13,272 nt of DNA from an uncultured bacterium (GTDB lineage Bacteria > Patescibacteriota > Minisyncoccia > Phycocordibacterales > UBA1006): the NCBI GenBank assembly GCA_903873095.1, contig CAIQMU010000052.1, positions 1 through 13,272 of the forward strand, written 5' to 3'. Made by a program: the position numbers and the translations under genes. The notes beneath the pieces were generated by a model. That model was not told the origin of the DNA and did not search any database. It was given only the letters and a program-made list of their open reading frames with translations. Below, one piece after another: positions 5,013-12,650 of this stretch. Position 1 is the stretch's first letter. Every line of letters begins with the position of its first letter.

Positions 5013-5060
5013 ACTGCTTCGCAAAAAACTCTGCCGAAGCAGAGTTTTTTGCGAAGCAGT
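5013..5060 (-). terminator. 48-nt perfect inverted repeat with UUCG-loop terminator, touching tRNA-Ile
   Basis: Two exact 22-nt arms (5013-5034 and 5039-5060) enclose a 4-nt loop, CGAA on the plus strand and TTCG on the minus. The inner part on the minus strand, ACTCTGC-TTCG-GCAGAGT followed by six T, is a textbook intrinsic terminator for the tRNA transcript. The outer part adds CTGCTTCGC and its complement, extending the stem up to the tRNA discriminator base at 5060. Confidence 0.85.
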
Positions 5061-5132
5061 GCGCGTGCTTGGGGTCGAACCAAGGACCTTTCGAGTATCA
5101 GTCGAATGCTCTACCAACTGAGCTACACGCGC
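5060..5132 (-). tRNA. tRNA-Ile(GAT)
   Basis: A complete 73-nt cloverleaf on the minus strand, from G1 at 5132 to discriminator A73 at 5060. The acceptor stem GCGCGTG/CACGCGC pairs over all 7 bp, followed by T8 A9. The D-arm is GCTC-AGTTGGTA-GAGC and the anticodon stem TTCGA/TCGAA has loop CTGATAC. The anticodon GAT (5099-5097) reads isoleucine ATC/ATT, with T33 and A37 as expected. The variable loop is AGGTC and the T-arm is CTTGG-TTCGACC-CCAAG. CCA is not encoded: the bases after A73 are CTG, so CCA-adding enzyme is needed. A promoter lies 22 nt upstream and a terminator hairpin begins at the discriminator base. Confidence 0.96.
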
Positions 5133-7241: not shown

Positions 7242-7317
7242 ACCTCACCCGGTCGCCTAACGGCGACCACCCTCTCCTGGAACAGGAGAGGGTCGCTCCG
7301 AAGGAGCGGGGTGAGGT
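7242..7317. repeat. Palindromic mosaic repeat, complete four-way (cloverleaf) copy
   Basis: A 76-nt element built only of base-paired segments. The outer stem is ACCTCACCC (7242-7250) with GGGTGAGGT (7309-7317), 9 bp. Inside are three adjacent hairpins: GGTCGCC-taac-GGCGACC (7251-7268), ACCCTCTCCTG-gaa-CAGGAGAGGGT (7269-7293) and CGCTCC-gaa-GGAGCG (7294-7308). No base is left unpaired at the junction. It lies in the 96-nt gap between rpmE2 and prfA, so it would be in their shared transcript. Related partial copies are at 7630, 9074, 11108 and 12498. Confidence 0.9.
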
Positions 7318-7629: not shown

Positions 7630-7680
7630 ACCCTCTCCTTCCAGGAGAGGGTGGTTTCCGTAAGGAAACCGGGTGAGGTT
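7630..7680. repeat. Palindromic mosaic repeat, partial copy at the 3' end of the transglycosylase gene
   Basis: Two adjacent hairpins, ACCCTCTCCT-tcc-AGGAGAGGGT (7630-7652) and GGTTTCC-gtaa-GGAAACC (7653-7670), followed by GGGTGAGGTT (7671-7680). The first hairpin and the last block match the cloverleaf copy at 7242. The middle hairpin has different bases but keeps full pairing. The 5' outer arm is missing. The last bases supply part of the transglycosylase TAA stop codon (7679-7681). Confidence 0.85.
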
Positions 7681-9058: not shown

Positions 9059-9073
9059 GGGTAGTGTTCGAAT

Positions 9074-9118
9074 CCTCCCCTTGATAAGGGGAGGTGCCCG
9101 CAGGGCGGAGGGGTGGTT
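9074..9118. repeat. Palindromic mosaic repeat in the transglycosylase leader
   Basis: CCTCCCCTT-gat-AAGGGGAGG (9074-9094), then GCCC-gca-GGGC (9096-9106), then GGAGGGGTGGTT (9107-9118). The order strong hairpin, short variable hairpin and purine-rich end block is the same as in the other copies. It occupies most of the predicted 5' leader of the transglycosylase mRNA. Confidence 0.8.
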
Positions 9119-10430: not shown

Positions 10431-10457
10431 ATTATTTTTTTTAATTTGATTTATCAA

Positions 10458-10486
10458 AAAATACCACGTCTCACTACTTTTTGCAA
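10458..10486 (-). promoter_or_regulatory. Promoter of the 171-aa gene (shared motif, copy 1)
   Basis: TTGCAA (10486-10481), 17 nt, TATTTT (10463-10458) preceded by TGG. Together with copy 2 at 10782-10810, 26 of 30 bases are identical. Only 4 bases in the spacer differ, and here they break the palindrome that copy 2 has. Confidence 0.6.
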
Positions 10487-10759: not shown

Positions 10760-10781
10760 GATTTAAGTTTTAGTTGTGGCA

Positions 10782-10810
10782 AAAATACCACGTCGTGGTA
10801 CTTTTTGCAA
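10782..10810 (-). promoter_or_regulatory. Promoter of the 78-aa gene (shared motif, copy 2) with palindromic spacer
   Basis: TTGCAA (10810-10805), 17 nt, TATTTT (10787-10782) preceded by TGG. The spacer and -10 contain the 15-bp palindrome TACCACG-A-CGTGGTA, which could be an operator. The A-run and T-run around it could also make it the pheT terminator, since it begins 10 nt after the pheT stop. Both roles are possible. Confidence 0.6.
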
Positions 10811-10820
10811 TAGATTTGAA

Positions 10821-12650
10821 CTATCTCACCTCCCAACCTTTTTCTTTTACTTTTTCATAAACAACCTCCATAACCTTGTCTACTTCTTCATTCATGAGTG
10901 TTCGCTCGAACGATTGAAAGACAAGTCGGAATGCGACAGATGTTTTTCCATCTTTTGAGAATGTATCGAACAGTTTTGGTTCCCGTGCTAGTAAACTTGT
11001 TCCGTTTGATTTCAAAATTTCAAGGACCTCATCAGGATTTGTTTCTGATGGAATCCAGAGTGCAATGTCGCGAGTAATGAAAGGATATTCTGACCACATC
11101 ACAAAAACCTCACCCGCTCCAGACCCCTCAGTCACTCGCAGGGCCTCGTGCCAGCTCCCCTTAGCAAGGGGAGCATTCCGCTCCACATACTCATCAAGTG
11201 TCATTTCACTAATCCCCTTTTTATCTGCAAACGCAACATGAACAACCTCGCCAGTTTTTGGAAATACTGTTCCAACCTCAAAAATTTTCATCTCAGAAAT
11301 TCCAAGGAGATCAGCATTCTGCTTGTTGAGTTCATATGAAGATTTGAGTGCATCTGAAAGATTTGTTCGCAGTGCTGATTTTCCAACCGGGCCGCGCGCA
11401 ACCTCGAAATCTCCTTTTTTTGTAAACGAATACGTCATCACCTCGTTGTATCCCTTTGAAATCAAATCAAGTTTAATTGCAGAAATTGTATCAAATGTTT
11501 CATGACGAGTCGGTTTGAAATCAAGATTTGGAAGTACGGGTATAATTTTTTCGTATCCGTATGCACGCCCGATTTCCTCGACCATGTCGTGCGGTCCAAT
11601 CAAATCAAGTCGTTCATATGGAATTAATACTTTGAACAATTCATCTTCTTCCTCGAAGTTATACCCATAATTATTTAAAATGGTTTTAATTTCTTCTCGT
11701 GCAATATCTGTTCCTAAAATATTGTTGATGTAATCAGATGAAAAAATAATCGTGTTTTGTACGGCTACTTGTTTGTAGTCATCAATCGGATCGCATGGTT
11801 GCCCACCTGCAAGTTCGCAAATCAAATCAGTGATGATGTGAATCACCGTTCCTGCTAAATGCGGTGTCAGTTCATTTTCAAATCTTTTTGCAGAATCGGT
11901 TAAAATGCCAAGTTTTCGGGCTGTTTTTCGCACGGAAATAGGATCGAAGTTGGCAACCTCGATGATGATGCTTTTTGTTTCCGTTGTAACCTCAGCTGCA
12001 TTTCCACCTTTTACACCTGCAATTGCAAGGACTTTTTCTGAATCGGCAATTACTGCATCTGTTGCTGAAAGAGTAATTTCTTTTCCGTCGAGTGTTGTGA
12101 TCTGTTCTCCTTCGGTTGCGTTTCGAATAATTATTTTTCCATTTGAAACTTTGTCATAATCAAACGCATGAATCGGCTGACCGAGTCCGAACATGATGTA
12201 GTTTGTTGCATCAACAATATTATTTATTGAACGTTGCTCGATTGATTCGAGTCGTTCTACGAGCCAAGCCGGTGAAGGTCCAACAGTAACACCAAAAACC
12301 TTTCGTCCGATGTAACGACGACACATATCTGTTTCAATGGTTACCTGAACATCACCTTCAACGGATTCATGATTTTTGAACGTCAGAGGTTTTAATGTCA
12401 GCCCAAGTAATCCGCACACTTCACGCGCAATTCCGTAGTGTGACAAGCAGTCATGTGCACGATCAGGTAAAACTTTTATTTCGAAAACAGTATCAGTACC
12501 CCCTCGGCCTTCGGCCACTCCCCCTAAAAGGGGGAGACACTCGACATCTTCCACCTCAAAAGCACCGAAAATAATTTTCTCGGCTAATACTTCTGGTTCA
12601 GGAAGCTTTTCTTCGATATAGGTTTGTAGCCAGTTATAACTGATTTTCAT
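10821..12650 (-). CDS. pheT: Phenylalanine-tRNA ligase beta subunit, short form with two repeat-encoded insertions
   Basis: Structural and tRNA-binding partner of PheS in the alpha2beta2 enzyme that charges tRNA-Phe. At 609 aa it is well below the usual bacterial size of about 790-800. The start MKISYNWLQTYIEEKLPEPE (1-20) is the PheT B1 region, but the EMAP-type tRNA-binding domain that normally follows (about 110 aa) is absent. Residues 54 on (TVFEIKVLPDRAHDCLSHYGIAREV) rejoin the normal sequence. B3/B4 (editing) domain: about 85-270, with NNIVDATNYIMFGLGQPIHAFD. B5: about 315-380. The catalytic-like core runs about 385-485, with ALRTNLS. The FDX-ACB domain ends the protein (SEYPFITRDIALWIP... 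to 609). Residues 38-52 and about 493-515 are translated palindromic repeats. The stop is TAG, and the start overlaps the upstream nucleotidyltransferase gene by 17 nt. Confidence 0.93.
   Translation of the reverse strand: MKISYNWLQTYIEEKLPEPEVLAEKIIFGAFEVEDVECLPLLGGVAEGRGGTDTVFEIKVLPDRAHDCLSHYGIAREVCGLLGLTLKPLTFKNHESVEGDVQVTIETDMCRRYIGRKVFGVTVGPSPAWLVERLESIEQRSINNIVDATNYIMFGLGQPIHAFDYDKVSNGKIIIRNATEGEQITTLDGKEITLSATDAVIADSEKVLAIAGVKGGNAAEVTTETKSIIIEVANFDPISVRKTARKLGILTDSAKRFENELTPHLAGTVIHIITDLICELAGGQPCDPIDDYKQVAVQNTIIFSSDYINNILGTDIAREEIKTILNNYGYNFEEEDELFKVLIPYERLDLIGPHDMVEEIGRAYGYEKIIPVLPNLDFKPTRHETFDTISAIKLDLISKGYNEVMTYSFTKKGDFEVARGPVGKSALRTNLSDALKSSYELNKQNADLLGISEMKIFEVGTVFPKTGEVVHVAFADKKGISEMTLDEYVERNAPLAKGSWHEALRVTEGSGAGEVFVMWSEYPFITRDIALWIPSETNPDEVLEILKSNGTSLLAREPKLFDTFSKDGKTSVAFRLVFQSFERTLMNEEVDKVMEVVYEKVKEKGWEVR
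11108..11174. repeat. Palindromic mosaic repeat inside pheT (distal copy)
   Basis: In the pheT sense strand: GCTCCCCTT-gct-AAGGGGAGC (11174-11154), a longer variable middle with CAC/GTG ends, then GGAGCGGGTGAGG. The end block is nearly the same as that of the cloverleaf copy. It stays in frame and encodes APLAKGSWHEALRVTEGSGAG (about residues 493-513), just before the FDX-ACB domain. Confidence 0.8.
12498..12536. repeat. Palindromic mosaic repeat inside pheT (proximal copy)
   Basis: In the pheT sense strand: CTCCCCCT-ttt-AGGGGGAG (12536-12518), GGCC-gaa-GGCC (12516-12506), then GAGGGGGT. The order strong hairpin, short hairpin, G-rich end is that of the other copies. It encodes in-frame LPLLGGVAEGRGG (residues 39-51), exactly where the EMAP-type domain is missing. 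Confidence 0.85.

Follow-up and report, generated by a model that had tools for sequence, protein, structure and literature searches.

Translated palindromes in bacteria

Translated palindromes have already been described from Rickettsia, Wolbachia and several other bacteria. Both the Rickettsia palindromic elements (RPEs) and the Wolbachia palindromic elements are short palindromic repeats which, like the elements described here, lie in frame in many housekeeping genes. Table 1 of PMC3767692 lists RPE-7 in Rickettsia pheT, ileS and the genes of a lytic transglycosylase and a DNA helicase (there RPE-6 in R. felis), and RPE-6 in uvrC (RPE-4 in R. felis). According to that article, RPEs are 100-150 bp long (68-192 in the table) and the aligned rickettsial orthologues are filled at the same sites, so that hotspots are not separable from one old insertion. 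Passages of PMC10969869 and PMC2267715 also mention RPEs, and those of the latter note small repeats read in different frames. A second group comprises the REPs. Di Nocera et al. 2013 (PMC3733652) report intragenic GTAG/CGTC REPs in DNA-repair, tRNA synthetase and TruB genes as well as different REPs at about one recB site in two Xanthomonas species; the main text contains neither ‘OD1’ nor ‘candidate division’, and the sections consulted name no Patescibacteria. REPINs are mobilised by RAYT transposases (cf. PMC3116915). Among the matches listed in the open-licence literature, no title or abstract start concerned palindromes of such kind in Patescibacteria.

The window analysed here is a whole contig of 13,272 nucleotides from an uncultured bacterium of the Patescibacteriota. 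An earlier note on this DNA had proposed that a mobile palindrome landed in pheT and was kept as protein, and had pointed to Rickettsia; this precedent is apt and even closer than stated, RPE-7 being listed in pheT too in the table cited above. The elements studied here work in an RPE-like way, with many palindromic copies, some of them inside coding sequences without a frame break (30 of 126 located copies). They differ in length (41-75 nt for the copies of this genome and of the sister species, against 100-150 bp), and empty sites occur in close relatives, whereas the rickettsial orthologues aligned in PMC3767692 are filled at the same sites.

With the GTAG/CGTC REPs of PMC3733652, our elements share stems of ~8 bp, opposite-orientation dimers and similar host genes, but they possess a second hairpin and a G-rich end and lack AT pairs at the base of the stem. 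By eye, no terminal unpaired GTAG is present at either end of the copies. CGTC REPs are marked by an unpaired terminal motif, CGTC, TGTC or CCTC. Many copies of type 1 start with TGTC and one with CGTC, but this C belongs to the stem, and the 8-bp stem begins with C-G pairs, contrary to the CGTC stem rule. Frequent dimers in opposite orientation, a general REP trait, do occur (52 of the 126 located copies). The likeness to REPINs lies in opposite-orientation pairs, which account for 44 of 96 copies outside confirmed coding sequences (within 150 nt); the difference is that PF01797 was not found in the four genomes of the genus. Given the absent GTAG tag and the departure from the CGTC stem rule, we would file the elements as their own untagged family which works like RPEs. 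New here are the lineage, the untagged two-hairpin element and the occurrence of both empty and occupied sites among close relatives.

Element A in the pheT reading frame

The pheT gene (10821-12650, minus strand) encodes a phenylalanyl-tRNA synthetase beta subunit of 609 amino acids which, from Pfam and PDB alignment, has no EMAP-like domain, and it hosts two palindromes, A and B. Element A is a 43-nt palindrome of type 1 (12497-12539, minus strand) whose translation, residues 38-52, reads CLPLLGGVAEGRGGT; it was recognised by BLAST, by a covariance model and by empty sites in relatives, and its extent is that of the match to the R1 model, taken as the whole element. An 8-bp hairpin is followed by a short GGCCGAAGGCC hairpin and a G-rich GAGGGGGTA end. 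The presence of a GC-rich two-hairpin repeat inside the frame at residues 39-51 (LPLLGGVAEGRGG, encoded by 12498-12536), as the earlier note had it, is confirmed by the translation and by BLAST, an 81-nt query finding 14 places in the 657-kb genome, namely itself and 13 others with E values from 4e-15 to 2e-5. The element order is also common to 19 aligned copies, among them the copy at 9072-9115, in line with the claim that copies between genes of the same window follow it.

The R1 covariance model was built from these 19 copies, with only the first hairpin modelled as paired, and element A matches it at E 3.7e-12. At E 0.01, it has 40 matches in this genome (G000, of which the window is contig C52), 12 in the sister species G001, 49 in G002 and 10 in G003, these being the four genomes of the genus. 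Outside the genus, 39 matches were found in G006 (same family), three weak ones in G008 and none in G005. Across the order (E 1e-4, stricter filters), matches occur in 12 of 148 genomes, this one included, thus the palindrome family is patchy.

Folded alone, element A is only modestly unusual: the 56-nt stretch around it reaches -12 kcal/mol (z -2.53), and 3 of 200 shuffles did equally well. The case for element A therefore rests on repetition and on empty sites. An assembly artefact or contamination can practically be dismissed: the source is a draft genome of 122 contigs, but the frame is intact, the PheT protein is listed with seven contigs, and genic copies are also found in the separate genomes G001, G002, G003 and G006.

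Empty and filled sites in relatives

The closest other PheT among the matches listed, P0002 (92% identity, known as protein), reads EVEDVEKLVTGDTVFEIKV where this PheT reads EVEDVECLPLLGGVAEGRGGTDTVFEIKV. In G001, whose PheT is 77% identical, site A, the place of element A, is empty in the DNA itself. Furthermore, element A is identical over 43 of 43 nucleotides, among the loci compared, to a copy in G001 (C15:43353) which lies outside any frame of at least 100 amino acids; its codons thus show no sign of shaping at the protein level. From the empty sites and this identity, it follows that element A is a recent insertion, which occurred after the split from the relative with the 92%-identical PheT. 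Together with the tree described below, they also favour, from comparison of sequences, the proposal of a palindrome that entered the gene and stayed there as part of the protein.

That an old, functional loop of the protein has by chance acquired codons of palindromic appearance is, by comparison, very improbable. Conservation of residues 38-52 across distant relatives with synonymous changes, which the earlier note had named as the mark of an ancient loop, was not found, with one caution: P0011 (63% PheT identity, protein only), from another part of the tree, carries LPLVGGVAEGRGG, nearly the same peptide, at site A. The peptide of element B, identical at 23 of 25 positions between P0001 and P0003 against 77% for the whole protein, also speaks for an old loop. 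Against it stand the empty site A in the closest relative found, the identity of element A to a copy of another species that lies in no long frame, and the ~40 matches of the same DNA family in the genome, a family that is read in either orientation, and in frames other than this one, where it lies in other genes. For element A, an old conserved loop is contradicted by the empty P0002 site and by the tree of 61 PheTs.

The net gain at site A amounts to about 10 residues for an element of 43 nt, so some host sequence was lost as well. In the flanks of the G000 and G001 copies, no target duplication was evident by eye.

The loop at the missing EMAP-like domain

When aligned with 3pco, which we take to be the E. 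coli enzyme, PheT residues 1-38 correspond to chain residues 1-37 (weakly, with a score below zero), and residue 52 onward corresponds to 154 onward (very strongly). Element A thus sits where 3pco has about 116 residues, presumably the EMAP-like domain. The Pfam tRNA-binding domain was found in none of the 64 PheTs scanned, this one included, and the commonest length of the site-A loop in 101 PheT rows is 13 codons. On these grounds, the loss of the domain is old and the insertion young, the former long predating the latter. The idea that the repeat entered a loop left by domain loss consequently holds for its position at the missing domain, whereas the two events are separated in time.

Recurrent occupation of sites A and B

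We built a quick tree of 61 PheTs (60 of the 120 proteins listed plus G001) from which the trait columns had been removed; it came with long-branch warnings, P0045 among the rows concerned. The relatives include Candidatus Paceibacterota, Nomurabacteria and Kaiserbacteria. On this tree, the six rows marked as inserted at site A need six changes. Only P0001 and P0012 (G002) among the six are shown to be repeats in DNA, P0003, P0011, P0045 and P0050 being protein rows. Filled and empty sites form sister pairs twice: P0001 with P0002 (SH-aLRT 100) and P0003 with G001 (99).

The repeats found at site A differ in their DNA: G000 carries type 1 there, G002 type 3 and L069 another one. The type-3 repeat of G002 has 20 BLAST matches in its genome (overlapping strands counted) at 15 distinct places including itself, and the repeat of L069 recurs at four other places in its own genome. 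In G008, the palindrome at site A has no other match in its 79%-complete genome and is not shown to be a repeat. It is therefore shown that the same loop is occupied by different palindromes in different species.

A larger set of 101 PheT rows (29 of 30 and 72 of 80 loci, with at least four genomes present twice) contains nine rows in which the site-A stretch has at least 20 codons. Four of these nine (G000, G002, G008 and L069), and none of the 92 others, possess a stem that is 8 bp or longer and contains six or more G or C. The remaining five expanded loops have no GC-rich stem: L137, L081, L066 and G037 possess no long stem and that of L077 is AT-rich. Compared with a same-gene background which includes the elements, the stem reaches p 0.06 in G000 and 0.017-0.087 in the other three. 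The site-A stem is thus not far out within single genes and its lone fold is modest, which leaves repetition and empty sites to carry the argument. In the same set, two Nomurabacteria contigs have broken pheT frames in the frame taken (L092:3001-4798, 9 stops; L132:3001-4565, 41 stops).

An unguided count of insertions of at least seven residues over the median in 121 PheTs placed 14 rows at site B and 10 at site A; the next sites had 5, 4, 3 and 3 rows, and not all of these insertions are palindromes. Site B is the place of element B, a 55-nt palindrome of type 2 in the same pheT (11122-11176, minus strand, R1 E 1.1e-5). This second in-frame copy, which the earlier note did not mention, lies in the linker before FDX-ACB and is read as NAPLAKGSWHEALRVTEGS. 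Judged from the proteins, element B seems to be older than element A, its peptide being common to P0002 and P0003. By eye, 23 of 25 residues are identical between P0001 and P0003 (window 11110-11180), and this may reflect selection at the protein level or conversion by another copy.

In G001, site B holds a type-3 element, one of eight matches there to R2, the model of that type. The palindrome at site B of G002 is absent among the listed R1 and R2 matches and is not shown to be a repeat. More distant relatives (P0078, P0092, P0117 and also P0086) carry at site B a different, long recurring insert, EEHGYFSAEKFL..., which is seen in the proteins and could represent a further mobile coding element. 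LPAQAG peptides in P0089 and P0103, likewise protein rows, resemble what we assume to be a translated REP of the CGTC type.

Other palindromes in the window and the type-3 family

Three further palindromic places lie between genes of the window. The type-2 copy at 9072-9115 (plus strand, BLAST and R1) is directly upstream of the lytic transglycosylase gene and, since it precedes the likely ATG, is taken as non-coding. A pair at 7242-7317 (overlapping matches 7242-7293, minus strand, and 7269-7317, plus strand) separates two genes which we take from their sequence to encode a release factor and an L31-type ribosomal protein, and a single copy at 7630-7679 (plus strand) lies between the L31-type and the transglycosylase genes. 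The pair and the single copy are of type 3, a second related family with the same plan. The R2 model has 25 matches in G000, 8 in G001, 39 in G002 and 33 in G003, some of which are both strands of one palindrome.

The second hairpin of type 3 varies in sequence, with 98.4% of cells paired and five of seven pairs changed on both sides, and the covariation score of the whole structure was reached by none of 500 shuffles. Pairing is hence maintained across copies in general, as would be expected if the hairpin were retained for a role in pheT mRNA or DNA (RNA stability, attenuation, a nuclease site) and the peptide were incidental. We nonetheless find this role improbable: the family is paired wherever it occurs, copies between genes included, close relatives do without a hairpin at site A, and no U-tract follows the hairpin in the sequence.

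Rfam returned only tRNA above the gathering score in the window and no family for the palindromes, which rules out a described RNA family as the identity of the element. Two other repeats were observed in the window. A perfect 22-nt inverted repeat (5013-5060) adjoins the tRNA gene at 5060-5132 and is possibly a terminator. Two 30-nt direct repeats, 87% identical (AAAAATACCACGTC..., 10457-10486 and 10781-10810), flank an open frame of 78 amino acids.

Copies in other genes

The repeat was searched as a structural model and its copies in coding sequences were counted. Out of 140 R1 matches in G000, G001, G002 and G006, 126 were located (39, 11, 46 and 30, respectively), and the 30 mentioned above were judged to be in frame inside conserved coding sequences. 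By our own judgement, a copy qualified if a Pfam match enclosed it or if the same protein had matches on both sides of it. Pfam supports one side only in five cases (PriA, G000 TruB, both UvrC copies and PheT element A), the left side of element A resting on the orthologue alignment. C-terminal extensions (a T2SSE pair and ParB), an N-terminal case (G000 C96:7753), frames without a Pfam match and copies directly upstream of a likely start were excluded, and three open frames of at least 150 amino acids (L238:371-1117, L246 and L242) lay outside the scan.

The genes concerned are, in G000, those for PheT (two copies), FtsK, PolA, PriA, a PIF1-like helicase, a class-V aminotransferase (presumably cysteine desulfurase-like), a CCA-type nucleotidyltransferase, TsaD and TruB. 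G002 contributes TopA (two), UvrB, RecJ, a PIF1-like helicase, LepA, TatD, Fmt and TruB (two), G006 contributes RecG, a class-I tRNA synthetase which we take to be IleRS-like (two), UvrC (two), MnmA (two) and TsaE (two), and G001 contributes TsaE. The frame of the G006 synthetase with its two palindromes (L266:989-3100, minus strand) also has a Pfam match to histidine phosphatase at residues 47-212. Of the 30 copies, 13 are read in one orientation and 17 in the other, and all three frames occur, which indicates that the DNA is what spreads and that the peptide is a by-product. It is also shown that loops of further essential enzymes in this genus and family contain copies in frame. The inserts in LepA and UvrB correspond to gaps of about 12 and 19 residues in comparison with solved structures.

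Type-3 elements are likewise read in frame: PheT contains them in G001 and G002, and others lie in CCA, Fmt, MiaA, Dus, MetRS, an ABC transporter and LigA (55 loci, some duplicate, in frames of at least 200 amino acids; Dus is supported on one side only).

Three side observations concern individual genes. In G001 tsaE (L252:1307-1903, minus strand), the palindrome is followed by a further small inverted repeat, CTGCGCAAGATGCGCAG. The empty tsaE site of G000 starts with TATTCCCTTAC, which resembles the C-rich end of the element, a possible target preference. Finally, Fmt (methionyl-tRNA formyltransferase; L150:902-1813, minus strand; L226:27-968, minus strand; L154:631-1608, plus strand) has two loops which differ in length and sequence in all three species of the genus that were compared. 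Three of its inserts are model matches (loop 1 in G000 and G003, loop 2 in G002) and the others are only candidate inserts.

Fresh insertion and replacement in place

The loops of PheT, TsaE and Fmt are shown to differ between species in the element that they hold or in its orientation. Insertion alone does not account for everything, since the gain at site A is small and the elements at site B seem to have replaced one another. One could propose that a single old palindrome settled at each loop and was later overwritten by others through recombination or template switching. Several observations agree with this proposal: at site B, the type-3 element of G001 and the type-2 element of G000 share the tail SGAGEVF and differ in the rest; the net length gains are below the element lengths; MiaA carries the same type in the same frame at the same site in G002 and G003; and the PIF1-like helicase is occupied at the same site and in the same orientation in G000 and G002. 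It is harder to reconcile with P0002 and G001, which are short at site A, and with the six changes needed by the six inserted rows. In addition, one place in TsaE is empty in G000, filled by a single element in G001 and by a double one in G006. In loop 1 of Fmt, the type-3 element of G000 points the opposite way to that of G003, and loop 2 contains a type-2 copy in G002. Overall, we consider such replacement in place less likely than not.

Mobilisation and proposed mechanism

The RAYT-type gene PF01797 was found in none of the four genomes of the genus nor in G006 and G008 (genomes 79-97% complete), and it is present in 14 of the 41 genomes searched. A RAYT-driven REP system inside the genus is rejected on these four negative results, although a gene could be missing from genomes that are not complete.

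We conclude with high confidence that what lies in pheT is one copy of a short, mobile palindrome rich in G and C, which keeps the reading frame and whose DNA is that of the unaltered element. According to the mechanism that we propose, the element would be copied in trans by an enzyme, although no mobilising enzyme was identified, and its copies would land in intergenic DNA as well as inside genes. Selection would remove most of those inside genes. The survivors would be those that are free of stops, keep the frame and lie in a loop tolerant of length changes, where they would be translated as inert decorations; the loop at the missing EMAP-like domain would be one such place. The least certain step concerns later elements, which might be new insertions or might overwrite a palindrome already present.

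Beyond this locus, we tentatively suggest, with somewhat less than even confidence, that, in this Paceibacterota genus and the family around it, mobile palindromes repeatedly dock at a fixed set of surface loops in proteins of translation and DNA repair. Element families would enter, leave or replace one another at sites A and B of PheT and in TsaE and Fmt, rapidly enough for sister species to differ. Besides what selection tolerates, the inserting machinery itself may determine the choice of site.

Implications

Empty and filled sites, together with different elements at one loop, make the question of hotspots versus one old insertion testable by comparison. In PheT residues 38-52 and comparable peptides of Patescibacteria proteins, one is looking at raw mobile DNA, which calls for caution before such peptides are read as functional motifs. 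The copies are also natural maps of insertion tolerance in essential enzymes. If the suggestion of docking sites is true, essential enzymes would carry rapidly exchanged decorations.
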